Below the pieces are notes generated by a model. That model saw only the letters and a program-made list of their open reading frames with translations. It had not been told where the DNA came from and did no database searches. Below are positions 3,753-52,805 of a stretch of DNA of 64,000 nucleotides, in pieces. The stretch covers positions 310,001 through 374,000 of the forward strand of contig NZ_AUBX01000010.1 in assembly GCF_000429465.1 (NCBI RefSeq). The letters run 5' to 3'. Positions within the stretch are counted from its first letter, which is position 1, and each line of letters opens with the position of its first letter. A program made the translations under genes and the position numbers. The DNA comes from Algoriphagus vanfongensis DSM 17529. Its GTDB lineage: Bacteria; Bacteroidota; Bacteroidia; Cytophagales; Cyclobacteriaceae.

Positions 3753-3772
3753 AGATAGATTCAAATTTTTTT

Positions 3773-4105
3773 TTAACAGCAATTTCCCTGATCATCAATT
3801 TTTTGATCAAAAAAAACACCTAAGGCTTGTCTCATTTTTTCCCAATTTCCTTGGTCAATACAATAGCAAACACTAGTACCCGTAATATTTCCTTTGATCA
3901 AACCCAATGATTTGAGCTCCTTGAGATGCTGAGAAATCGTGGGCTGAGCTAGACCGATTTCCAAAACCAAATCTCCGCAGACACAGGAATTGATCTTGAA
4001 AAGGTGCTGGAGGATAGCCACCCGAGCGGGATGGGCAAAAGCTTTTGCAAATTGAGCTATCTCATTTTGCTGGTCAGAGAATATTTCAGTTTTGGTCAAC
4101 CCCAT
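3773..4105 (-). CDS. arsR: Arsenic-responsive repressor, ArsR family
   Basis: 110-residue winged-helix protein of the ArsR/SmtB family. The helix-turn-helix region reads LGLAQPTISQHLKELKSLGLIKG, and an SCVCGD segment just before it matches the ELCVCDL-type As(III) site, with two cysteines. The protein ends with a second cysteine pair (GNCC), which could give a third thiol ligand. It is the first gene of the leftward ars operon and would repress that operon until As(III) binds. The upstream region carries an operator-like box ending 13 bp before the start codon. Confidence 0.93.
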   Translation of the reverse strand: MGLTKTEIFSDQQNEIAQFAKAFAHPARVAILQHLFKINSCVCGDLVLEIGLAQPTISQHLKELKSLGLIKGNITGTSVCYCIDQGNWEKMRQALGVFFDQKIDDQGNCC

Positions 4106-4117
4106 GATTCAATTTAT

Positions 4118-4135
4118 TTATTGCAATATTACGAT
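4118..4135 (-). promoter_or_regulatory. ArsR operator-like box, copy 1
   Basis: TTATTGCAATATTACGAT (plus strand) upstream of arsR; 16 of 18 positions match the box at 3735-3752. It contains the perfect palindrome TATTGCAATA. Read leftward it also includes TAATATTG, one mismatch from the Bacteroidota -7 element TANNTTTG, so repressor and polymerase sites may overlap. Function is inferred from the repeat and location. Confidence 0.55.
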
Positions 4136-4241
4136 TAATAATTTTTCAAGTTCAATGATTTGACACTTTTTTTCAAAATTCAACTAGTTACCTCCTCCGA
4201 TAAAACACCTAACTTCCCCAATATTGAAAATCCTCCATGTC

Positions 4242-4541
4242 ATGATGAAGAAAAGCTTGTTTTATGGGATCGCCTGTGTCGTATTCCTTTCCTGCGACAA
4301 GGATGACACCTTGCCTCTATTGGCCGAGACCGGAACCATTTGGCGTAGCGGAGGACTTTATTACTGTGCCGAGCAGATCCATCTAGACAATGGAGACATA
4401 GTAATAGTGGCGGATTTGACAAGTATGCTTGAGTATCCATCCGGAACCCGAGTGTCTGTCGCCTACCAAAAACTGGGAATGAATAAAAACTGTGCGCCAG
4501 CTATTGATGGTGAAATCATAGAAATCGAAGAAATAGAGTAA
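4242..4541 (+). CDS. Small putative lipoprotein
   Basis: 99-residue protein beginning MMKK with a short hydrophobic stretch and a lipobox-like VFLSC followed by KDDD-type residues, indicating an exported, lipid-anchored protein. The mature part is about 80 residues, contains single cysteines (YYCAEQ, KNCAP) and resembles no family I can name. I chose ATG 4242 (ATG 4245 is equally possible) because a start at an upstream TTG (4224) would add residues before the charged signal-peptide start. It ends 2 bp before map, so the two are probably co-transcribed. Confidence 0.65.
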   Translation: MMKKSLFYGIACVVFLSCDKDDTLPLLAETGTIWRSGGLYYCAEQIHLDNGDIVIVADLTSMLEYPSGTRVSVAYQKLGMNKNCAPAIDGEIIEIEEIE

Positions 4542-4543
4542 AT

Positions 4544-5305
4544 ATGTCCATATCCAAAGAATCCGAACTCATCGGAATGAAAAAAGTAAGTGAAGTCGTA
4601 GCTCAAACGCTCAAGCAGATGAGAAATCACGCCAAAGCCGGAATGAGCACCAAAGAGCTGGACGAGTTTGGCGGGCAAATTCTAAATAGTTTAGGCGCCA
4701 AATCTGCACCTTTCGAGACCTATGGCTTCCCTGGCTATACCTGTATCAGCGTCAACCAAGAAGCCGCACATGGGATTCCATCCGAAAACAAAATTTTGAA
4801 GGAAGGTGACCTGATCAATATAGATGTTTCAGCCGAATTAGATGGTTTTTGGGCTGACAATGGAGGCTCCTTCGTCATTGGCAAAGACATTCATCAGCAT
4901 CAGCCATTGGTAGATGCTTCCAGGACTATTTTGCAAAAGGCAATCAACCAAATCCGTGGAGGAGTGAAAATCGCGGACATTGGACATCTTATCGAATCGG
5001 AAGCCAGAAAATCTGGCTTCAAAGTCATCAAAAACCTAGCAGGCCATGGAGTAGGTCGGAGTCTCCATGAAGCACCCGAGGATATCCTAAACTATCGGGT
5101 CAAGAGCAACCGGGAGCGTTTTAAGAAAAATACGACAGTTGCTATCGAAACATTCATCTCTACACATTCCACCTATGCAGTCGAGCAAGCCGATGGCTGG
5201 ACACTGGTTGGCAATAAAGGAGGATTTGTGACGCAGCATGAACACACGATTTTGATCACTGATCAAGCTCCCCTGATACTGACCGCAGCAAATGAAATCT
5301 GGTAA
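4544..5305 (+). CDS. map: Methionine aminopeptidase, type I
   Basis: 253-residue cytoplasmic metalloprotease that removes the initiator methionine from nascent proteins. All five metal ligands are recognisable: Asp94, Asp105 (NIDVSAELDGFWADNG), His168 (GHGVGRSLHE), Glu202 (AIETF) and Glu233 (HEHT); the substrate-contacting His76 (HGIPS) is also present. Length and spacing match type I enzymes without an N-terminal zinc extension. It follows the small lipoprotein gene by 2 bp. Normally map lies in ribosomal-protein operons in many bacteria, so this may be a second copy, which cannot be decided from the window. Confidence 0.93.
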   Translation: MSISKESELIGMKKVSEVVAQTLKQMRNHAKAGMSTKELDEFGGQILNSLGAKSAPFETYGFPGYTCISVNQEAAHGIPSENKILKEGDLINIDVSAELDGFWADNGGSFVIGKDIHQHQPLVDASRTILQKAINQIRGGVKIADIGHLIESEARKSGFKVIKNLAGHGVGRSLHEAPEDILNYRVKSNRERFKKNTTVAIETFISTHSTYAVEQADGWTLVGNKGGFVTQHEHTILITDQAPLILTAANEIW

Positions 5306-5332
5306 AACCCCACCCAAAAAAACCTATCATCA

Positions 5333-5767
5333 ATGACTAGTAAAATCCTGAAAATCTTCCTCAGACTTGCTTTGGCATCTTCATTTCTATCAGCAGTAGC
5401 GGATAGATTGGGGATGTGGCCCTCATCCGTTTCAGTCTGGGGAGATTGGGCTACTTTTTTAGATTATACCCAACTCATCAACCCTTGGTTTCCTCCCTCC
5501 ACCATTCCTATCCTCGGTGCCTTGGTCACAGGCTTGGAGGTTTTGTTTGCTATGGCACTCCTACTTGGATTCAAAACAGAGTTTTTCGGAAAATTAAGCG
5601 GAATACTGATCTTAATTTTTGCCCTCTCCATGACACTTTCTACAGGAATCAAAGGCGCCTTTGACTATTCCGTTTTTTCGGCAGCCGCTGCAGCATTTTG
5701 TTTGGGGCAAATGAAAGACAAATTTCTGGAGCTAGATTTAGTCTTTCAGAGAGGCCTGGCAAATTAA
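5333..5767 (+). CDS. DoxX-like integral membrane protein
   Basis: 144 residues with four predicted membrane helices (N-terminal FLRLALASSFLSAVA, then PILGALVTGLEVLFAMALLLGF, LSGILILIFALSMTLSTGI and FSAAAAAFCLG). This is the layout of small DoxX/DoxD-type proteins, whose roles range from quinone-linked oxidation to stress membrane complexes; none can be assigned here. It begins 27 bp after map and is followed by a bidirectional terminator hairpin. A second DoxX-like gene lies at 35248. Confidence 0.75.
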   Translation: MTSKILKIFLRLALASSFLSAVADRLGMWPSSVSVWGDWATFLDYTQLINPWFPPSTIPILGALVTGLEVLFAMALLLGFKTEFFGKLSGILILIFALSMTLSTGIKGAFDYSVFSAAAAAFCLGQMKDKFLELDLVFQRGLAN

Positions 5768-48508: not shown

Positions 48509-48531
48509 ATATTTGATTAAAATTAAAACAA

Positions 48532-48626
48532 CGGGGTGCCTACATACGGCTGAGATCATACCCGAAAAACCTGATCTGGATAATGCCAGCGTAGGAATTG
48601 TGAGAGTCGTGCGGACTCTATTCTTT
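48532..48626 (+). promoter_or_regulatory. TPP riboswitch (THI box) with downstream terminator hairpin
   Basis: The aptamer spans 48532-48602: GGGGTGCC, GGCTGAGATCATACCCG, then ACCTGATCTGGATAATGCC and AGCGTAGGAA are the conserved THI-box segments in correct order. An AGAGTC/GACTCT hairpin (48603-48619) followed by ATTCTTTCT is the likely expression platform. It precedes the four-gene operon at 48660-51364, so that operon should be shut off when thiamine pyrophosphate is abundant. Confidence 0.95.
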
Positions 48627-48659
48627 CTGGAATTCATTCAGGTCTAAGTATTTAGACGA

Positions 48660-49385
48660 ATGAGCGAACTGATCAAAAAAGAAAATTACCAAGTGGCGCC
48701 GGAAGAACTCCGGACTTGGCAAGGGCGTAAAGAGTGGTTTTTTAATCGAGATGATACCGATCATTACGAGCAATACTACGAGGGTCCCTACAAAGAACAG
48801 GAGATTTGGCAGAAAAGGACTTTGGAAGGCCTGATCAAGCAGGATCATCGAGTCAAAACCCTTTTGGAATTCGGCTGTGGAACTACCCGCTTTACGCGAT
48901 GGTGGCATGAAATCGGCCTGGAAGCTACAGGTGGAGACATTTCTCCCTTTATGCTTGCCCAGGGCGTACAGTTATTTGACGGGGATCTGGTACTGGCAGA
49001 CTCTCATCACATGCCCTTCAAGGATCATTCCTTCGATGCCTTGGCTTTTGTGACCACTTTCGAATATTACAAAAATCCTGTAGCCGTCATCCGAGAAGCT
49101 GTCCGAGTTGGTAAATATGGGATCATTTTCGGAATGATGAATCGCAACACGCCCAAGCTAATCCGAAGGAGAGTGCAGCAGGTTTTTGGAAAAAACAATT
49201 ACTATGTCACGGCCAATTTCTACACACCTGCTTCACTAAAAGCCTTAGTAGCAGAAGCACTACCGGATCGTGACTACAGCATAGAATGGAATGCAACCGG
49301 CCTTCCCAAGTGGTTTCCCAAGCAACAATGGAAAGTCCCCTATGGAGATTTCTTCGGATTTCATGTCAAACTCAATGATGTGTAA
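48660..49385 (+). CDS. Class I SAM-dependent methyltransferase, TPP-regulated
   Basis: 241 residues; SAM-binding motif I LLEFGCGTTRFTRWW, acidic motif GGDISPFML and DHSFDALAFVTTFEYYKNP identify a Rossmann-type methyltransferase. The substrate is unknown. It is the first gene behind the TPP riboswitch and its stop overlaps the start of the AIR-synthase-like gene by one base, so it belongs to the operon. A Trm112-like partner gene closes the same operon; pairing is inference. Confidence 0.88.
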   Translation: MSELIKKENYQVAPEELRTWQGRKEWFFNRDDTDHYEQYYEGPYKEQEIWQKRTLEGLIKQDHRVKTLLEFGCGTTRFTRWWHEIGLEATGGDISPFMLAQGVQLFDGDLVLADSHHMPFKDHSFDALAFVTTFEYYKNPVAVIREAVRVGKYGIIFGMMNRNTPKLIRRRVQQVFGKNNYYVTANFYTPASLKALVAEALPDRDYSIEWNATGLPKWFPKQQWKVPYGDFFGFHVKLNDV

Positions 49386-50449
49386 TGGGAGCTTTTGAGG
49401 ATTTTTCCGGAAAAATCAGTGCTGCTGTTTTCAAAAAAGACTTGCTCAACCGCCGTGGAGCCAGTCGGGATGAGGTGATTTGTGGGCCTCAGTTTGGAGT
49501 GGATACTGCCCTCATCGATTTGGAAAATGGCAATGCTTTGGCTGTTTCCAGCGATCCTTTGTCACTGATTCCCTCATTAGGGATGAAAGTTTCGGCTTGG
49601 CTATCCATCCATTTACTAGCCAATGATTTATGCACAACGGGTTTTGCTCCGCAGTATGCACAGTTTGTACTCAATCTCCCATCGAGCATGAGCAGAGAGC
49701 AATTTGGAGAATATTGGCAGTACATTCATGAGCTTTGCACGGATCTGAATATAGCGATCACGGGGGGCCATACAGGACAGGTTCCCGGTCAGGAATCCAC
49801 CATTTCGGGTGGTGGAACGATGTTTTTGCAAGCTCCCAAAGAAAAACTCCTCTCAAGCAATAGGGCAAAAGCCGGGAATTCGATCATCCTCACCAAAGGA
49901 GCTGCTTTGTCGAGCACCTCTTTGCTGGCTATGGCCTTCCCTAATTTTGTATCAGATGCTCTGGGTGATGAGATCCAGCATAAGGCCGCTGCCAATTTCT
50001 GGAAGCTTTCCGTACTTCCAGAAGCTCTTTTGGCGTCCTCTACCCTCCTGCCGAATAAGGAACTCTTGGCCATGCACGATGTCACTGAGGGAGGTGTTTT
50101 GGGGGCATTGGATGAAATGGCAGATGCATCTGGTTTGGGTTTTTCTGTCAAGAAATCGGGAATTCCTGTTTCAGATGAAGTTGAAAAAGTAGCCAAGCTT
50201 TTTGGAATTGACCCTTTGATCTCAATCGGAGCTGGAGCCTTGTTGATGGCCGTGGAAGAAGGTTCAGAAGAAAAACTACTTCAAGCCTATCAGGAAAAAG
50301 GCATTGAAGCCTCCTGTATCGGCCAGTTCACCGCTGATCCGAAAAAAGAAATCATAGCTGAAAAGAATCAAAAATCAATCTTTGATTTTAACGGGAAAGA
50401 CCCATACTGGGACGCCTTTTATGAAGCTATCAAATCTGGAAAATCATGA
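49385..50449 (+). CDS. AIR-synthase/HypE-like protein, TPP-regulated
   Basis: 354 residues of the PurM/HypE/SelD/ThiL superfamily: GPQFGVDTALIDLENG near the N-terminus, SSDPLSLIPSLG, HLLANDLCTTGFAPQYA, and TGGHTGQVPG plus MHDVTEGGVLGAL in the C-terminal half. These enzymes phosphorylate or activate substrates with ATP. It is nearer to the HypE-like 'AIR synthase related' group than to ThiL (thiamine phosphate kinase), whose signature I do not see, yet it is under TPP control. Overlaps the next gene by 4 bp. Confidence 0.85.
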   Translation: MGAFEDFSGKISAAVFKKDLLNRRGASRDEVICGPQFGVDTALIDLENGNALAVSSDPLSLIPSLGMKVSAWLSIHLLANDLCTTGFAPQYAQFVLNLPSSMSREQFGEYWQYIHELCTDLNIAITGGHTGQVPGQESTISGGGTMFLQAPKEKLLSSNRAKAGNSIILTKGAALSSTSLLAMAFPNFVSDALGDEIQHKAAANFWKLSVLPEALLASSTLLPNKELLAMHDVTEGGVLGALDEMADASGLGFSVKKSGIPVSDEVEKVAKLFGIDPLISIGAGALLMAVEEGSEEKLLQAYQEKGIEASCIGQFTADPKKEIIAEKNQKSIFDFNGKDPYWDAFYEAIKSGKS

Positions 50450-51072
50450 AGCAAATCAAAGGATTGTATTTGGTATTGGACCCTTCTCAGGATTGGTCCT
50501 TGCTATTGGGAAAGTTGAAAGAGGCGCTTAGGGCCGGAGTCGGTGTGGTTCAGATATGGAATCACTGGCAGAAAGGTATCCAAGAAGAGGACAAAATCAG
50601 CTTTTGCAAATCAGTAGTAGAGTTTGCGGAGTCCTTTTCTGCACCCGTCTTGGTCAATGAGGACTGGAAGCTGGCACTGAAAGCCAAGGTGGACGGAGTT
50701 CATTTTGATCAAATCCCAATAAACTGGGATCTAGTCAAAGTGAAACTCCAACATAAGATAACAGGATTGACTGTCGGAAACGATCTAGAAACGATCCGAT
50801 GGGCAGATCAAAATCAGATGTCCTACATCAGTTTTTGCTCGGTATTCCCCTCTTCCTCCGTGGATACCTGCGAACTTGTGGACCCAGACACAATCCGACA
50901 AGCTCAGAACCTGACGAGTTTACCCATTTTCCTTTCCGGAGGAATCAAACCCGAAAACCTGCATCTTTTGCAGGAATTCTCCTATCAAGGGCTAGCAGTC
51001 ATTTCAGGGATTTTGAATCAGGAAGATCCCAAGGCTGCCACCCAGAATTATCTCAAACAAATGAAACACTAA
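50446..51072 (+). CDS. ThiE/TenI-fold protein lacking ThiE catalytic residues
   Basis: 208 residues with the TIM-barrel pattern of thiamine phosphate synthase (LVNEDWKLALKAKVDGVHFDQ; LPIFLSGGIKPENL; LAVISGIL). By comparison with B. subtilis ThiE from memory, Arg59, Lys61, Asp93, Asp112 and Lys159 are replaced here by Trp38, His40, Glu72, Pro91 and Val139; the phosphate-binding SGGI loop is kept. The TenI histidine (Ser132 here) is also missing. So ordinary ThiE or TenI activity is doubtful. Operon position between the AIR-synthase-like and Trm112-like genes. Confidence 0.85.
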   Translation: MKQIKGLYLVLDPSQDWSLLLGKLKEALRAGVGVVQIWNHWQKGIQEEDKISFCKSVVEFAESFSAPVLVNEDWKLALKAKVDGVHFDQIPINWDLVKVKLQHKITGLTVGNDLETIRWADQNQMSYISFCSVFPSSSVDTCELVDPDTIRQAQNLTSLPIFLSGGIKPENLHLLQEFSYQGLAVISGILNQEDPKAATQNYLKQMKH

Positions 51073-51076
51073 TCGT

Positions 51077-51364
51077 ATGAACAGGAAATTATTAGATAAA
51101 CTCTGCTGTCCTTTTGATAAAAAGGACCTCAATCTGGAAGTATTTCAGGAGACGGAAGACCAACAAATCATCGAAGGCATATTGACTTGCACTAGCTGCA
51201 ACAGATATTTCCCCATCATCTATGGCATTCCCATCATGACCCCGGATGAGTACCGAGAAAAATCCCTAGAACTTCCCAGCTTAAAGAGATGGGGACTTGA
51301 AATGGCTGCAGGCCAACAGTCCTTTCAGCTTGCTGCCCCCGAAAACTTTAAAAAGCTAGAGTAA
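51077..51364 (+). CDS. Trm112-like zinc-ribbon protein
   Basis: 95 residues. LLDKLCCPFDKKDL and GILTCTSCNRYFPIIYGIPIM are the two cysteine knuckles of the Trm112/UPF0434 family, small zinc proteins that bind and stabilise SAM methyltransferases. About 25 extra C-terminal residues lie beyond the domain. The operon opens with a methyltransferase gene, its probable partner. Ends directly before the operator array of the next gene. Confidence 0.85.
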   Translation: MNRKLLDKLCCPFDKKDLNLEVFQETEDQQIIEGILTCTSCNRYFPIIYGIPIMTPDEYREKSLELPSLKRWGLEMAAGQQSFQLAAPENFKKLE

Positions 51365-51440
51365 TATCGTCATAAAAAGCGATATTTGATTTTATCGTCT
51401 AAAAAAACGATATTTAAGATTATCGCTCAAATAAACGATA
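51365..51440 (+). promoter_or_regulatory. Three-copy operator array with 28-bp period
   Basis: TATCG-N10-CGATA occurs at 51365-51384, 51393-51412 and 51421-51440, exactly 28 bp apart. Half-sites alternate in orientation with spacings of 15 and 13 bp. The array starts at the base after the Trm112-like stop codon and ends 10 bp before the SatD-like ATG. Autoregulation by the SatD-like protein is the simplest reading. Confidence 0.65.
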
Positions 51441-51450
51441 AAATCAGACT

Positions 51451-52095
51451 ATGATAGCAGTCATAAAAGGAGATATCATGTCTTCGAGAAAAATTCAAAA
51501 TCCGGAAGTCTGGCTGATACCACTTCAAAAACTTATGGGAAAATGGGGAGAACAGCCTAAGGATTGGGAATTGGTCTGGGGGGATTTTTTCCAATTGGAA
51601 GTAAAAAACCCAGCGGAATCCCTTCATAAGGCCATCCAAATCAAGATTTTGATCAAAAGCATCTCTGAGCCCAATATCTCCAAAACATCCAGTCCCATTG
51701 ACGTGAGAATGTCTATCGGGATAGGGGAAAAAACCTATGGAGGAGCTCGTATTTCCGAAAGCAACGGACCGGCATTTATTCACTCCAGTGAGCAATTTGA
51801 CAGGCTAAAAAAGGAAAAAGTAAACCTTGCGATCCAAAGTCCATGGAAAGACATGGATGAGGAGATCAATCTTTACCTCAAATTGGCCGGGATATTTATG
51901 GACAAGTGGTCTTTATCCTCCGCCGAACTCATGCAGATCATCTGGGCTGATCCCCAGGCGACTCAAGAGGAAGTCGGACGGAAACTCGGAATCAAACAAA
52001 ACTCAGTCAGTGACAGATTCAAAAGAGCCAATGTCGAAGAACTGATGGAAATCGAACAGATTTTTAGGAAAAAACTCCAGAACCATCTGCCATGA
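51451..52095 (+). CDS. SatD-like regulatory protein
   Basis: 214 residues of the SatD family: the N-terminal nucleotide-cyclase-like region (MIAVIKGDIMSSRKI; LVWGDFFQLEV; MSIGIGEKTYGG) and a C-terminal helix-turn-helix (ATQEEVGRKLGIKQNSVSDRF). SatD was named in Streptococcus mutans acid tolerance; its activity is not established to my knowledge. The C-terminal DNA-binding domain and the operator array just upstream suggest it controls itself and the DUF3307 gene, which it overlaps by 4 bp. Confidence 0.83.
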   Translation: MIAVIKGDIMSSRKIQNPEVWLIPLQKLMGKWGEQPKDWELVWGDFFQLEVKNPAESLHKAIQIKILIKSISEPNISKTSSPIDVRMSIGIGEKTYGGARISESNGPAFIHSSEQFDRLKKEKVNLAIQSPWKDMDEEINLYLKLAGIFMDKWSLSSAELMQIIWADPQATQEEVGRKLGIKQNSVSDRFKRANVEELMEIEQIFRKKLQNHLP

Positions 52096-52805
52096 TCATC
52101 CTTCTCAAGCTTCTCCTTGCGCATCTGATCGGTGATTTTGTCCTTCAGCCCAGCTCTTGGGTTCAAGAAAAAGAGCAACTGAAAGTCAGATCTTGGAAGC
52201 TTTACTTACACTTCCTCATCCACGGACTATTGACAGCGATCCTTCTTTTTGACAAGGCTTTATGGTATATCCCCATTTTGGTAGTCATTCTCCATGGAGC
52301 TATCGATCTACTCAAAATTTACTCTCAGACAGGAAAAAATAGGGTATTTTGGTTTATTCTGGATCAATGCCTCCACGTATTAAGTTTAATAGGCATTTGG
52401 CTGGTAATAACTCAAAAAACACCTGACATCCTCCCTCTTTTTTCATCAGTCTATTTTTTGGCAATAGTGACAGGTTTGCTGTTCGTCACCCAAGTTTCGG
52501 CCCTCTTGCTACAGGTATTGCTAAAAAACTGGTCCAAAGAACTCGATCTACCAAAAAAATATTCTCTACAGCAGGCCGGCAAATACATAGGAATATTGGA
52601 AAGACTGTTTGTCTTCACCTTTGTGTTGCTAGGCAAATGGGAAGCTGTAGGTTTTCTCCTCACTGCAAAATCTGTCTTCAGATTCAGTGATCTCAGCAGA
52701 TCTAAGGACCGAAAATTGACTGAATATATTTTAGTGGGCACTCTTTTAAGTTTTGCATTAGCAATCTCTGCAGGACTTTTTGTAAACTGGGTTTCCAAAA
52801 TTTAA
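52092..52805 (+). CDS. DUF3307 integral membrane protein
   Basis: 237 residues with six or seven membrane helices; the N-terminus LLLAHLIGDFVLQPSSWVQEK is the DUF3307 signature (HxxGDFxxQ), and HFLIHGLLTAILL plus VILHGAIDLLKIY follow. Members are found beside SatD-type regulators. Function unknown; the conserved His/Asp/Gln pattern in the membrane suggests an enzymatic or transport role, which is inference. Confidence 0.88.
   Translation: MIILLKLLLAHLIGDFVLQPSSWVQEKEQLKVRSWKLYLHFLIHGLLTAILLFDKALWYIPILVVILHGAIDLLKIYSQTGKNRVFWFILDQCLHVLSLIGIWLVITQKTPDILPLFSSVYFLAIVTGLLFVTQVSALLLQVLLKNWSKELDLPKKYSLQQAGKYIGILERLFVFTFVLLGKWEAVGFLLTAKSVFRFSDLSRSKDRKLTEYILVGTLLSFALAISAGLFVNWVSKI

Follow-up and report, generated by a model that had tools for sequence, protein, structure and literature searches.

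In a 64,000-nucleotide stretch of the Algoriphagus vanfongensis DSM 17529 genome (contig NZ_AUBX01000010.1, positions 310,001 to 374,000; hereafter the window, whose numbering we use), we have characterized a cassette of four coupled genes behind a predicted thiamine pyrophosphate (TPP) riboswitch. The genes encode a methyltransferase (MT), a member of the aminoimidazole ribonucleotide (AIR) synthase superfamily (AIRS), a protein with the fold of the thiamine phosphate synthase ThiE, and a Trm112-like zinc-knuckle protein, and they recur together in the same order across Bacteroidota and Balneolota. We tentatively suggest, with confidence a little short of even, that the cassette is a vitamin B1 starvation module that reworks an imported vitamer with S-adenosylmethionine (SAM) and ATP in Bacteroidota lacking ThiC.

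A riboswitch-led set of coupled genes

The leader and the four genes of the cassette comprise the following features.

48522-48614, + strand: predicted TPP riboswitch aptamer (THI element; Rfam RF00059)
48603-48619, + strand: 6-bp hairpin directly 3' of the aptamer, the terminator of an earlier note on this DNA; not above chance
48635-48662, + strand: hairpin over the MT start codon predicted by the leader fold, with CATTC pairing to GAATG
48660-49385, + strand: MT, class I SAM-dependent methyltransferase (Pfam PF08241, 59 bits)
49385-50449, + strand: AIRS, AIR-synthase superfamily, HypE/ThiL/SelD-like (PF02769, 79 bits; PF00586, 37.6 bits)
50446-51072, + strand: ThiE/TenI-fold protein with changed hydroxymethylpyrimidine (HMP)-diphosphate and Mg positions (PF02581, TMP-TENI, 104.3 bits)
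51077-51364, + strand: Trm112-like zinc-knuckle protein (PF03966, Trm112p, 32.7 bits)

The earlier note, made from the sequence alone, had placed a TPP riboswitch ahead of these genes, and the RF00059 match (68.8 bits, E 1.9e-11, gathering score 54.3) agrees; ligand binding and control of expression by the element are predicted from this match. Pfam likewise names all four families as the note had done, and the coupling it described coincides exactly with the coordinates, with MT and AIRS overlapping by 1 bp, AIRS and the ThiE-fold gene overlapping by 4 bp, and a gap of 4 bp before the Trm112-like gene.

The claim that the riboswitch carries its own terminator hairpin did not hold up. The stem at 48603-48619 has only 6 bp and is followed by a mixed tail reading ATTCTTTCTG, and terminator-like sites between 48100 and 51800 number 5 where shuffled sequences give 3.9 +/- 1.8. 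Compared with its shuffles, the whole leader shows no better folding (z -1.15; 32 of 200 shuffles were as good). A hairpin resembling that at 48603-48619 is found in the close relatives L110, L112 and L113. The second predicted hairpin, at 48635-48662, would mask the MT start codon, and one of similar shape occurs in L112, L114 and L115. Given this predicted pairing of the start codon, translational control is as likely in this genome. Among the 42 leaders compared, L149, L170, L177 and L178 have a strong hairpin followed by a run of T where a terminator would stand. Thus, with start-codon hairpins in some loci and a hairpin and T-run in others, the mode of control may differ by lineage.

Conservation and inheritance as a unit

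The cassette is conserved well beyond the immediate relatives of its host. A near set of 58 genomes (the window's own and 57 relatives) was searched with the AIRS protein, and matches of at least 296 bits were found in 10 genomes, the next level being 48 bits. All 10 carriers have the four genes in the same order with a TPP riboswitch ahead of them (the window's genome and 9 of 9 neighbour genomes). An MT alignment scanned against named genomes returned 216 relatives; the counts below cover the 80 with the best matches and leave out the other 136, and at least 5 of the 80 loci are from genomes also among the 10 near-set carriers. The order MT, AIRS, ThiE-fold, Trm112-like is preserved on one strand in 76 of these 80 loci, and the remaining 4 (L119, L146, L151 and L166) end at contig edges; we reject a chance neighbourhood on these counts. 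An aptamer stands upstream of MT in 74 of the 80 loci, as judged with a riboswitch model built from 11 sequences. These counts answer two checks that the earlier note had proposed, for co-occurrence of the four families beyond close relatives and for THI boxes upstream in other genomes, and both came out in its favour. Carriers span Bacteroidota and Balneolota and include Algoriphagus, Ekhidna, Roseivirga, Neolewinella, Pontibacter, Arenibacter, Runella, Sphingobacterium and Balneolaceae, with two Arenibacter genomes holding two cassettes apiece (L169/L182 and L172/L174). In a draw of 395 genomes from the phylum, AIRS matches of at least 500 bits were found in 13, and the next best match scored 62 bits.

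Several observations indicate that the four genes are inherited as one unit. The three successive gene borders fall within -10 to +20 in 72/78, 73/76 and 61/76 cases, counts biased towards tightness because the start codon nearest the upstream stop was chosen. Across 77 cassettes, the four genes have correlated matrices of pairwise identity (r 0.68-0.85), where the highest value from 500 shuffles per gene pair was 0.11. Additionally, in a quick AIRS tree with two long branches, the label Algoriphagus needs three changes and well supported branches force three, and this genus holds at least three separate AIRS lineages. Together, the correlated identities and the three changes fit transfer of the whole cassette. 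Median pairwise identities over the 77 cassettes are 0.74 for MT, 0.52 for AIRS, 0.42 for the ThiE-fold protein and 0.50 for the Trm112-like protein; MT is the slowest and most conserved gene of the cassette.

Flanks of about 5 kb on each side (open reading frames of at least 90 aa) contain no fifth family in more than 8 genus labels, with one exception. This candidate fifth gene, ABC-transporter-like by eye, has 20 members, of which 7 are on the + strand, lies at varied distances and looks generic, and we rejected it. In the window itself, the space between the Trm112-like gene and a SatD-like gene (51365-51450) holds several TATCG/CGATA copies over about 85 bases, seen by eye, an array that resembles a multi-site operator for the SatD-like helix-turn-helix protein. 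The SatD-like gene overlaps a DUF3307 gene by 4 bp (51451-52805).

Links to uptake and apparent absence of canonical thiamine synthesis genes

ThiC had no match in any of the 10 near-set carriers, the window's genome among them, and is present in 7 of the 48 other near-set genomes. It also had no match in the 47 named carriers searched. Of the 395 phylum genomes, 138 have ThiC, and the 13 phylum carriers all fall outside that group; 3 of the 13 were recorded without a match and the other 10 were taken as belonging to the same 395-genome draw. These three carrier sets (10, 47 and 13) overlap and are not independent. The two gene sets meet within single genera: genus g31 includes one genome with the cassette and no listed ThiC and five others with ThiC, and in the window's genus ThiC occurs in 2 genomes and the cassette in 9 others.

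Full-length ThiD and ThiG were also not found in the 10 nearest carriers. Partial ThiD matches there reach at most 33.4 bits, whereas two ThiC genomes have best matches of 177 to 290 bits; partial ThiG matches reach at most 24.9 bits (34.3 in G045, in a frame that includes neighbours), compared with 345 bits in the same two ThiC genomes. The few partial ThiD- and ThiG-like matches above the Pfam cut-off were taken for other kinases and barrels. By these profile searches, the window's genome appears to lack the ThiC, ThiG and ThiD of canonical thiamine synthesis.

The cassette ThiE-fold protein is the sole PF02581 match in 9 of the 10 nearest carriers. The genome of locus L056 (G030), a carrier without ThiC, has a second PF02581 protein that at 161 bits scores above the cassette copy, and the 3.5 kb around its gene, inspected by eye, hold no recognisable thiamine genes. 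None of the 21 genomes tested within the window's family, carrier or non-carrier, has the catalytic domain of thiamine pyrophosphokinase (TPK), whereas all 13 tested outside it do, 11 of these being carriers. Thus, the cassette neither replaces nor requires TPK.

Uptake genes in the window's genome are under similar control. A second TPP riboswitch (68.6 bits) precedes a TonB receptor gene, and a third, weaker TPP element (43.5 bits, below gathering) precedes a PnuC-family transporter gene. In locus L039, a TonB receptor gene stands between the riboswitch and MT, and this receptor and that of the window's genome are both 795 aa and alike on sight; L111 (Ekhidna lutea) also has a TonB receptor between riboswitch and MT. 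The uptake genes and in-operon receptors favour salvage over de novo synthesis, albeit in a small sample. The PnuC-family region of the window's genome (L047, contig C5, about 3766-5476, - strand, behind the TPP element at 5482-5594) is closely trailed by a gene with weak, below-cut-off acyl-CoA-dehydrogenase matches. This genome has a ThiL and thiamine-type uptake genes, yet no TPK catalytic domain.

A ThiE fold with an altered active site

The ThiE-fold protein is modelled with high confidence (mean predicted local distance difference test, pLDDT, 95.2), and its best match in the PDB is Bacillus subtilis ThiE (2tps; template modelling score, TM-score, 0.86). Its scores fall short of the thiE equivalog model TIGR00693 (103.2 bits, cut-off 145.1) and of the TenI model NF005819 (54.9 bits, cut-off 251).

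Residues were compared between 77 cassette sequences and 10 canonical ThiE proteins. Positions R59, K61, N92, D93, D112 and K159, which we take to be the HMP-diphosphate and Mg positions of ThiE, are kept in all 10 canonical sequences. In the cassettes, position 59 holds W (75) or Y (2) and never R, position 61 is N, H or G and never K, position 93 is D in 2 of the 77, position 112 is D in none, and position 159 falls in an alignment gap in all 77. Other positions are conserved: Q57 is kept in 77/77, the G187-G188 pair of the phosphate cradle in 77/77 and its S209 in 76/77, while position 156 is S in 73 and T in 4 and position 158 is S or T in 75. ThiE binds the thiazole phosphate in this cradle, which is retained here, and most of the HMP-diphosphate site is gone. 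Additionally, two cysteines, residues 131 and 142 of the window protein, are invariant in 68 aligned sequences.

Judged by these alignments, the cassette proteins lack the HMP-diphosphate and Mg residues of ThiE except N92, present in 67 of 77, and D93, present in 2. The earlier note's statement that the protein has lost catalytic residues is borne out at positions 59, 61, 93, 112 and 159, and the substitutions make ordinary thiamine phosphate synthesis by this protein unlikely.

The AIRS, MT and Trm112-like proteins

The AIRS model is also confident (pLDDT 93.8), and HypE, ThiL and SelD are about equally near among its PDB matches, HypE being first. Structure prediction has yielded confident models for both proteins, one ThiE-like and one HypE/ThiL/SelD-like. 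AIRS is below the cut-off of every NCBIfam model that it matches, including those for thiL (TIGR01379, 78.1 versus 184.15 bits), HypE (TIGR02124, 75.8 versus 251.6 bits) and SelD (TIGR00476, 59.9 versus 125 bits). Its C-terminus, IKSGKS, lacks the terminal cysteine that is a feature of HypE. That AIRS is not a clear ThiL, as the note had said, fits both its thiL score and the presence of a separate ThiL in the genome; we rejected AIRS as the genome's ThiL because that other gene reaches 322.9 bits. AIRS probably uses ATP.

MT scores far below the cut-offs of generic, UbiE-like and BioC-like models, and its only rRNA-methyltransferase match is at 12.7 bits (E 0.066). On plasmids, MT homologues at 27-35% identity are found in 6 records, and five of the 6 carry a methyltransferase annotation.

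The Trm112-like protein exceeds the PF03966 cut-off (32.7 versus 22 bits) and misses that of the archaeal Trm112 model NF038101 by 7 (70.3 versus 77 bits). The signature [C/D]PX[C/D]X19-36CX2C, which PMC5372719 gives for one archaeal subfamily, is found in 75 of 77 cassettes. One line of evidence, the gene neighbourhood, suggests that MT and the Trm112-like protein may form a complex and that MT may be activated in it.

Discussion

The proposal of a B1-starvation module builds on the regulatory element, the coupled and co-inherited gene set, the absence of ThiC from the carriers examined and the altered HMP-diphosphate site. A thiamine-related substrate or product is suggested by the regulation, the ThiE fold and the TonB receptor in two loci. 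Under this proposal, the module would be on when TPP is scarce, the imported vitamer would be a piece, damaged form or analogue of thiamine, and the goal would be thiamine phosphate or a usable precursor. With the Trm112-like protein as its activator, MT would transfer a methyl group from SAM, and AIRS would phosphorylate or otherwise activate the substrate at the expense of ATP. The ThiE-fold protein might act on the thiazole or pyrimidine, possibly through its invariant cysteines, in a step whose leaving group is not diphosphate.

A stronger claim is that the four proteins form an undescribed SAM- and ATP-driven B1 route of ThiC-less Bacteroidota, in which synthesis or repair of the thiamine skeleton falls to the ThiE-fold enzyme and needs no HMP diphosphate. 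We regard this as possible but doubtful; if true, it would give bacterial Trm112 a small-molecule role. In a sulfonium version, MT and Trm112 would turn a pyrimidine thioether into the leaving group that replaces diphosphate and AIRS would phosphorylate the thiazole, but this is a guess to which we attach very little belief.

Several points weigh against the proposed module. We infer the identity of the B1 vitamer, the MT-Trm112 complex and every chemical step, and to our knowledge methyl transfer has no place in B1 salvage routes. Some features of the ThiE site persist, since position 92 is N in 67 of 77 cassettes (H in 10) and position 130 is T in all 77 (among the canonical ten, 8 have T and 2 have S). 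The family f42 holds 9 of the 13 phylum carriers and none of the 138 ThiC genomes, so the exclusion of ThiC is partly a lineage effect. Additionally, 244 of the 395 phylum genomes have neither ThiC nor the cassette, and the cassette is therefore not needed by auxotrophs in general. The ThiD and ThiG searches covered the 10 nearest carriers, and ordinary salvage enzymes such as ThiM, TenA and thiaminase, which lie outside the searches, may coexist with the cassette. An in-operon receptor occurs in only 1 of the 10 nearest loci and 1 of the 80 scan loci. Finally, the 11-sequence model finds no aptamer in 6 of the 80 loci (L119, L121, L124, L125, L126 and L127), and Rfam also finds no TPP riboswitch in L121, L124, L125 and L126.

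Of the alternatives, the one that survives best, although we consider it unlikely, is a B1-starvation response outside B1 chemistry: either the target of MT and Trm112 is a macromolecule or lipid, or the module stands in for a TPP-dependent step while TPP is scarce. In eukaryotes, the methyltransferases that partner with Trm112 act on tRNA, rRNA and release factors (PMC5372719), and the unusual conservation of MT would suit such a role. This reading is harder to reconcile with the ThiE-fold and AIRS genes that follow MT in 76 of 80 loci (the 4 others are truncated at contig edges), or with a ThiE-fold protein that retains the double glycine of its phosphate cradle in every sequence and the serine in all but one of 77.

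Somewhat less probable still is an alternative de novo route, by which the cassette would build part of thiamine, such as the pyrimidine, out of common metabolites and so replace ThiC. In its favour, no carrier examined has ThiC, and carriers and ThiC genomes are found in the same genus. Four genes are few for de novo synthesis, though, with no radical SAM, sulfur-carrier or ThiG parts among them, and the in-operon TonB receptors of L039 and L111, together with the uptake genes of the window's genome, suggest import.

We also find it improbable, to a slightly greater degree, that the operon salvages HMP and thiazole with a diverged but ordinary thiamine phosphate synthase, AIRS as substrate kinase and two accessory genes. 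Fold and top PDB match are those of ThiE, 9 of 10 carriers have no other PF02581 match, a true ThiL in the window's genome could use thiamine phosphate, and Q57 is universal and N92 frequent. Against this, five ThiE positions (59, 61, 93, 112 and 159) are changed in nearly all 77 sequences, the 10 nearest carriers have no full-length ThiD-like kinase, and MT, the most conserved gene, is left with no role. Least probable of the four is that, under B1 shortage, the cassette makes or detoxifies a thiamine antimetabolite, a methylated pyrimidine akin to bacimethrin. The presence of a methyltransferase among B1-related genes resembles bacimethrin synthesis, but apart from the generic ABC-transporter-like one no further family reaches more than 8 genus labels beside the cassette, and the recurring neighbours, named by eye, include nothing like hydroxymethylcytosine chemistry or thiaminase.

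If a B1-starvation module does open to ThiC-less Bacteroidota vitamers that are closed to others, there are consequences for genome interpretation. Genomes are commonly judged B1-auxotrophic by genes such as ThiC, ThiG and ThiE; these predictions would then be wrong or incomplete for carriers, and a thiamine phosphate synthase label on the ThiE-fold gene would be misleading. In 2017, bacterial Trm112 was described as having no known function (PMC5372719). The cassette offers a concrete, testable partner and context for it.

Comparison with known systems

TPP-riboswitch B1 operons are a known kind, and the set of genes found here under such a riboswitch is not described in the open-licence PubMed Central texts searched, with supplements and subscription papers outside that scope. 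This accords with the earlier note, which could not match the genes to a described pathway. In the part of its text consulted, gene tables aside, an RNA-motif regulon survey (PMC3766115) mentions no such genes.

Among Bacteroidetes, the TPP-riboswitch operons named in PMC5613172 include thiSEGCHF-tenI, OMthi and pnuT-tnr3. Phylum and TPP control are shared with the cassette, and the window's genome also has a TonB receptor and a PnuC-family transporter behind TPP elements. In contrast to those operons, the window's genome has no ThiC match and no full-length ThiG or ThiD match, and the cassette adds a methyltransferase, AIRS and a Trm112-like protein.

At the protein level, the cassette enzyme resembles ThiE in fold (TM-score 0.86 to 2tps), Gln 57, the phosphate cradle and N92 (67/77), and differs at positions 59, 61, 93, 112 and 159 and in its new invariant cysteines. 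TenI, the thiazole tautomerase, is of the same superfamily, with 1yad among the PDB matches, whereas the 10 nearest cassette carriers have no full-length ThiG to supply its substrate. AIRS shares the two-domain fold of ThiL, HypE and SelD, and its first-domain aspartates align with theirs; its GGHT motif stands against GGDT in the aligned ThiL chain, GDT in the HypE chains and GGHS in SelD. Lastly, the zinc-knuckle signature is common to the cassette protein and to Trm112 acting with methyltransferases, while the cassette MT has generic, UbiE-like and BioC-like matches far below their cut-offs and a single, weak rRNA-methyltransferase match.

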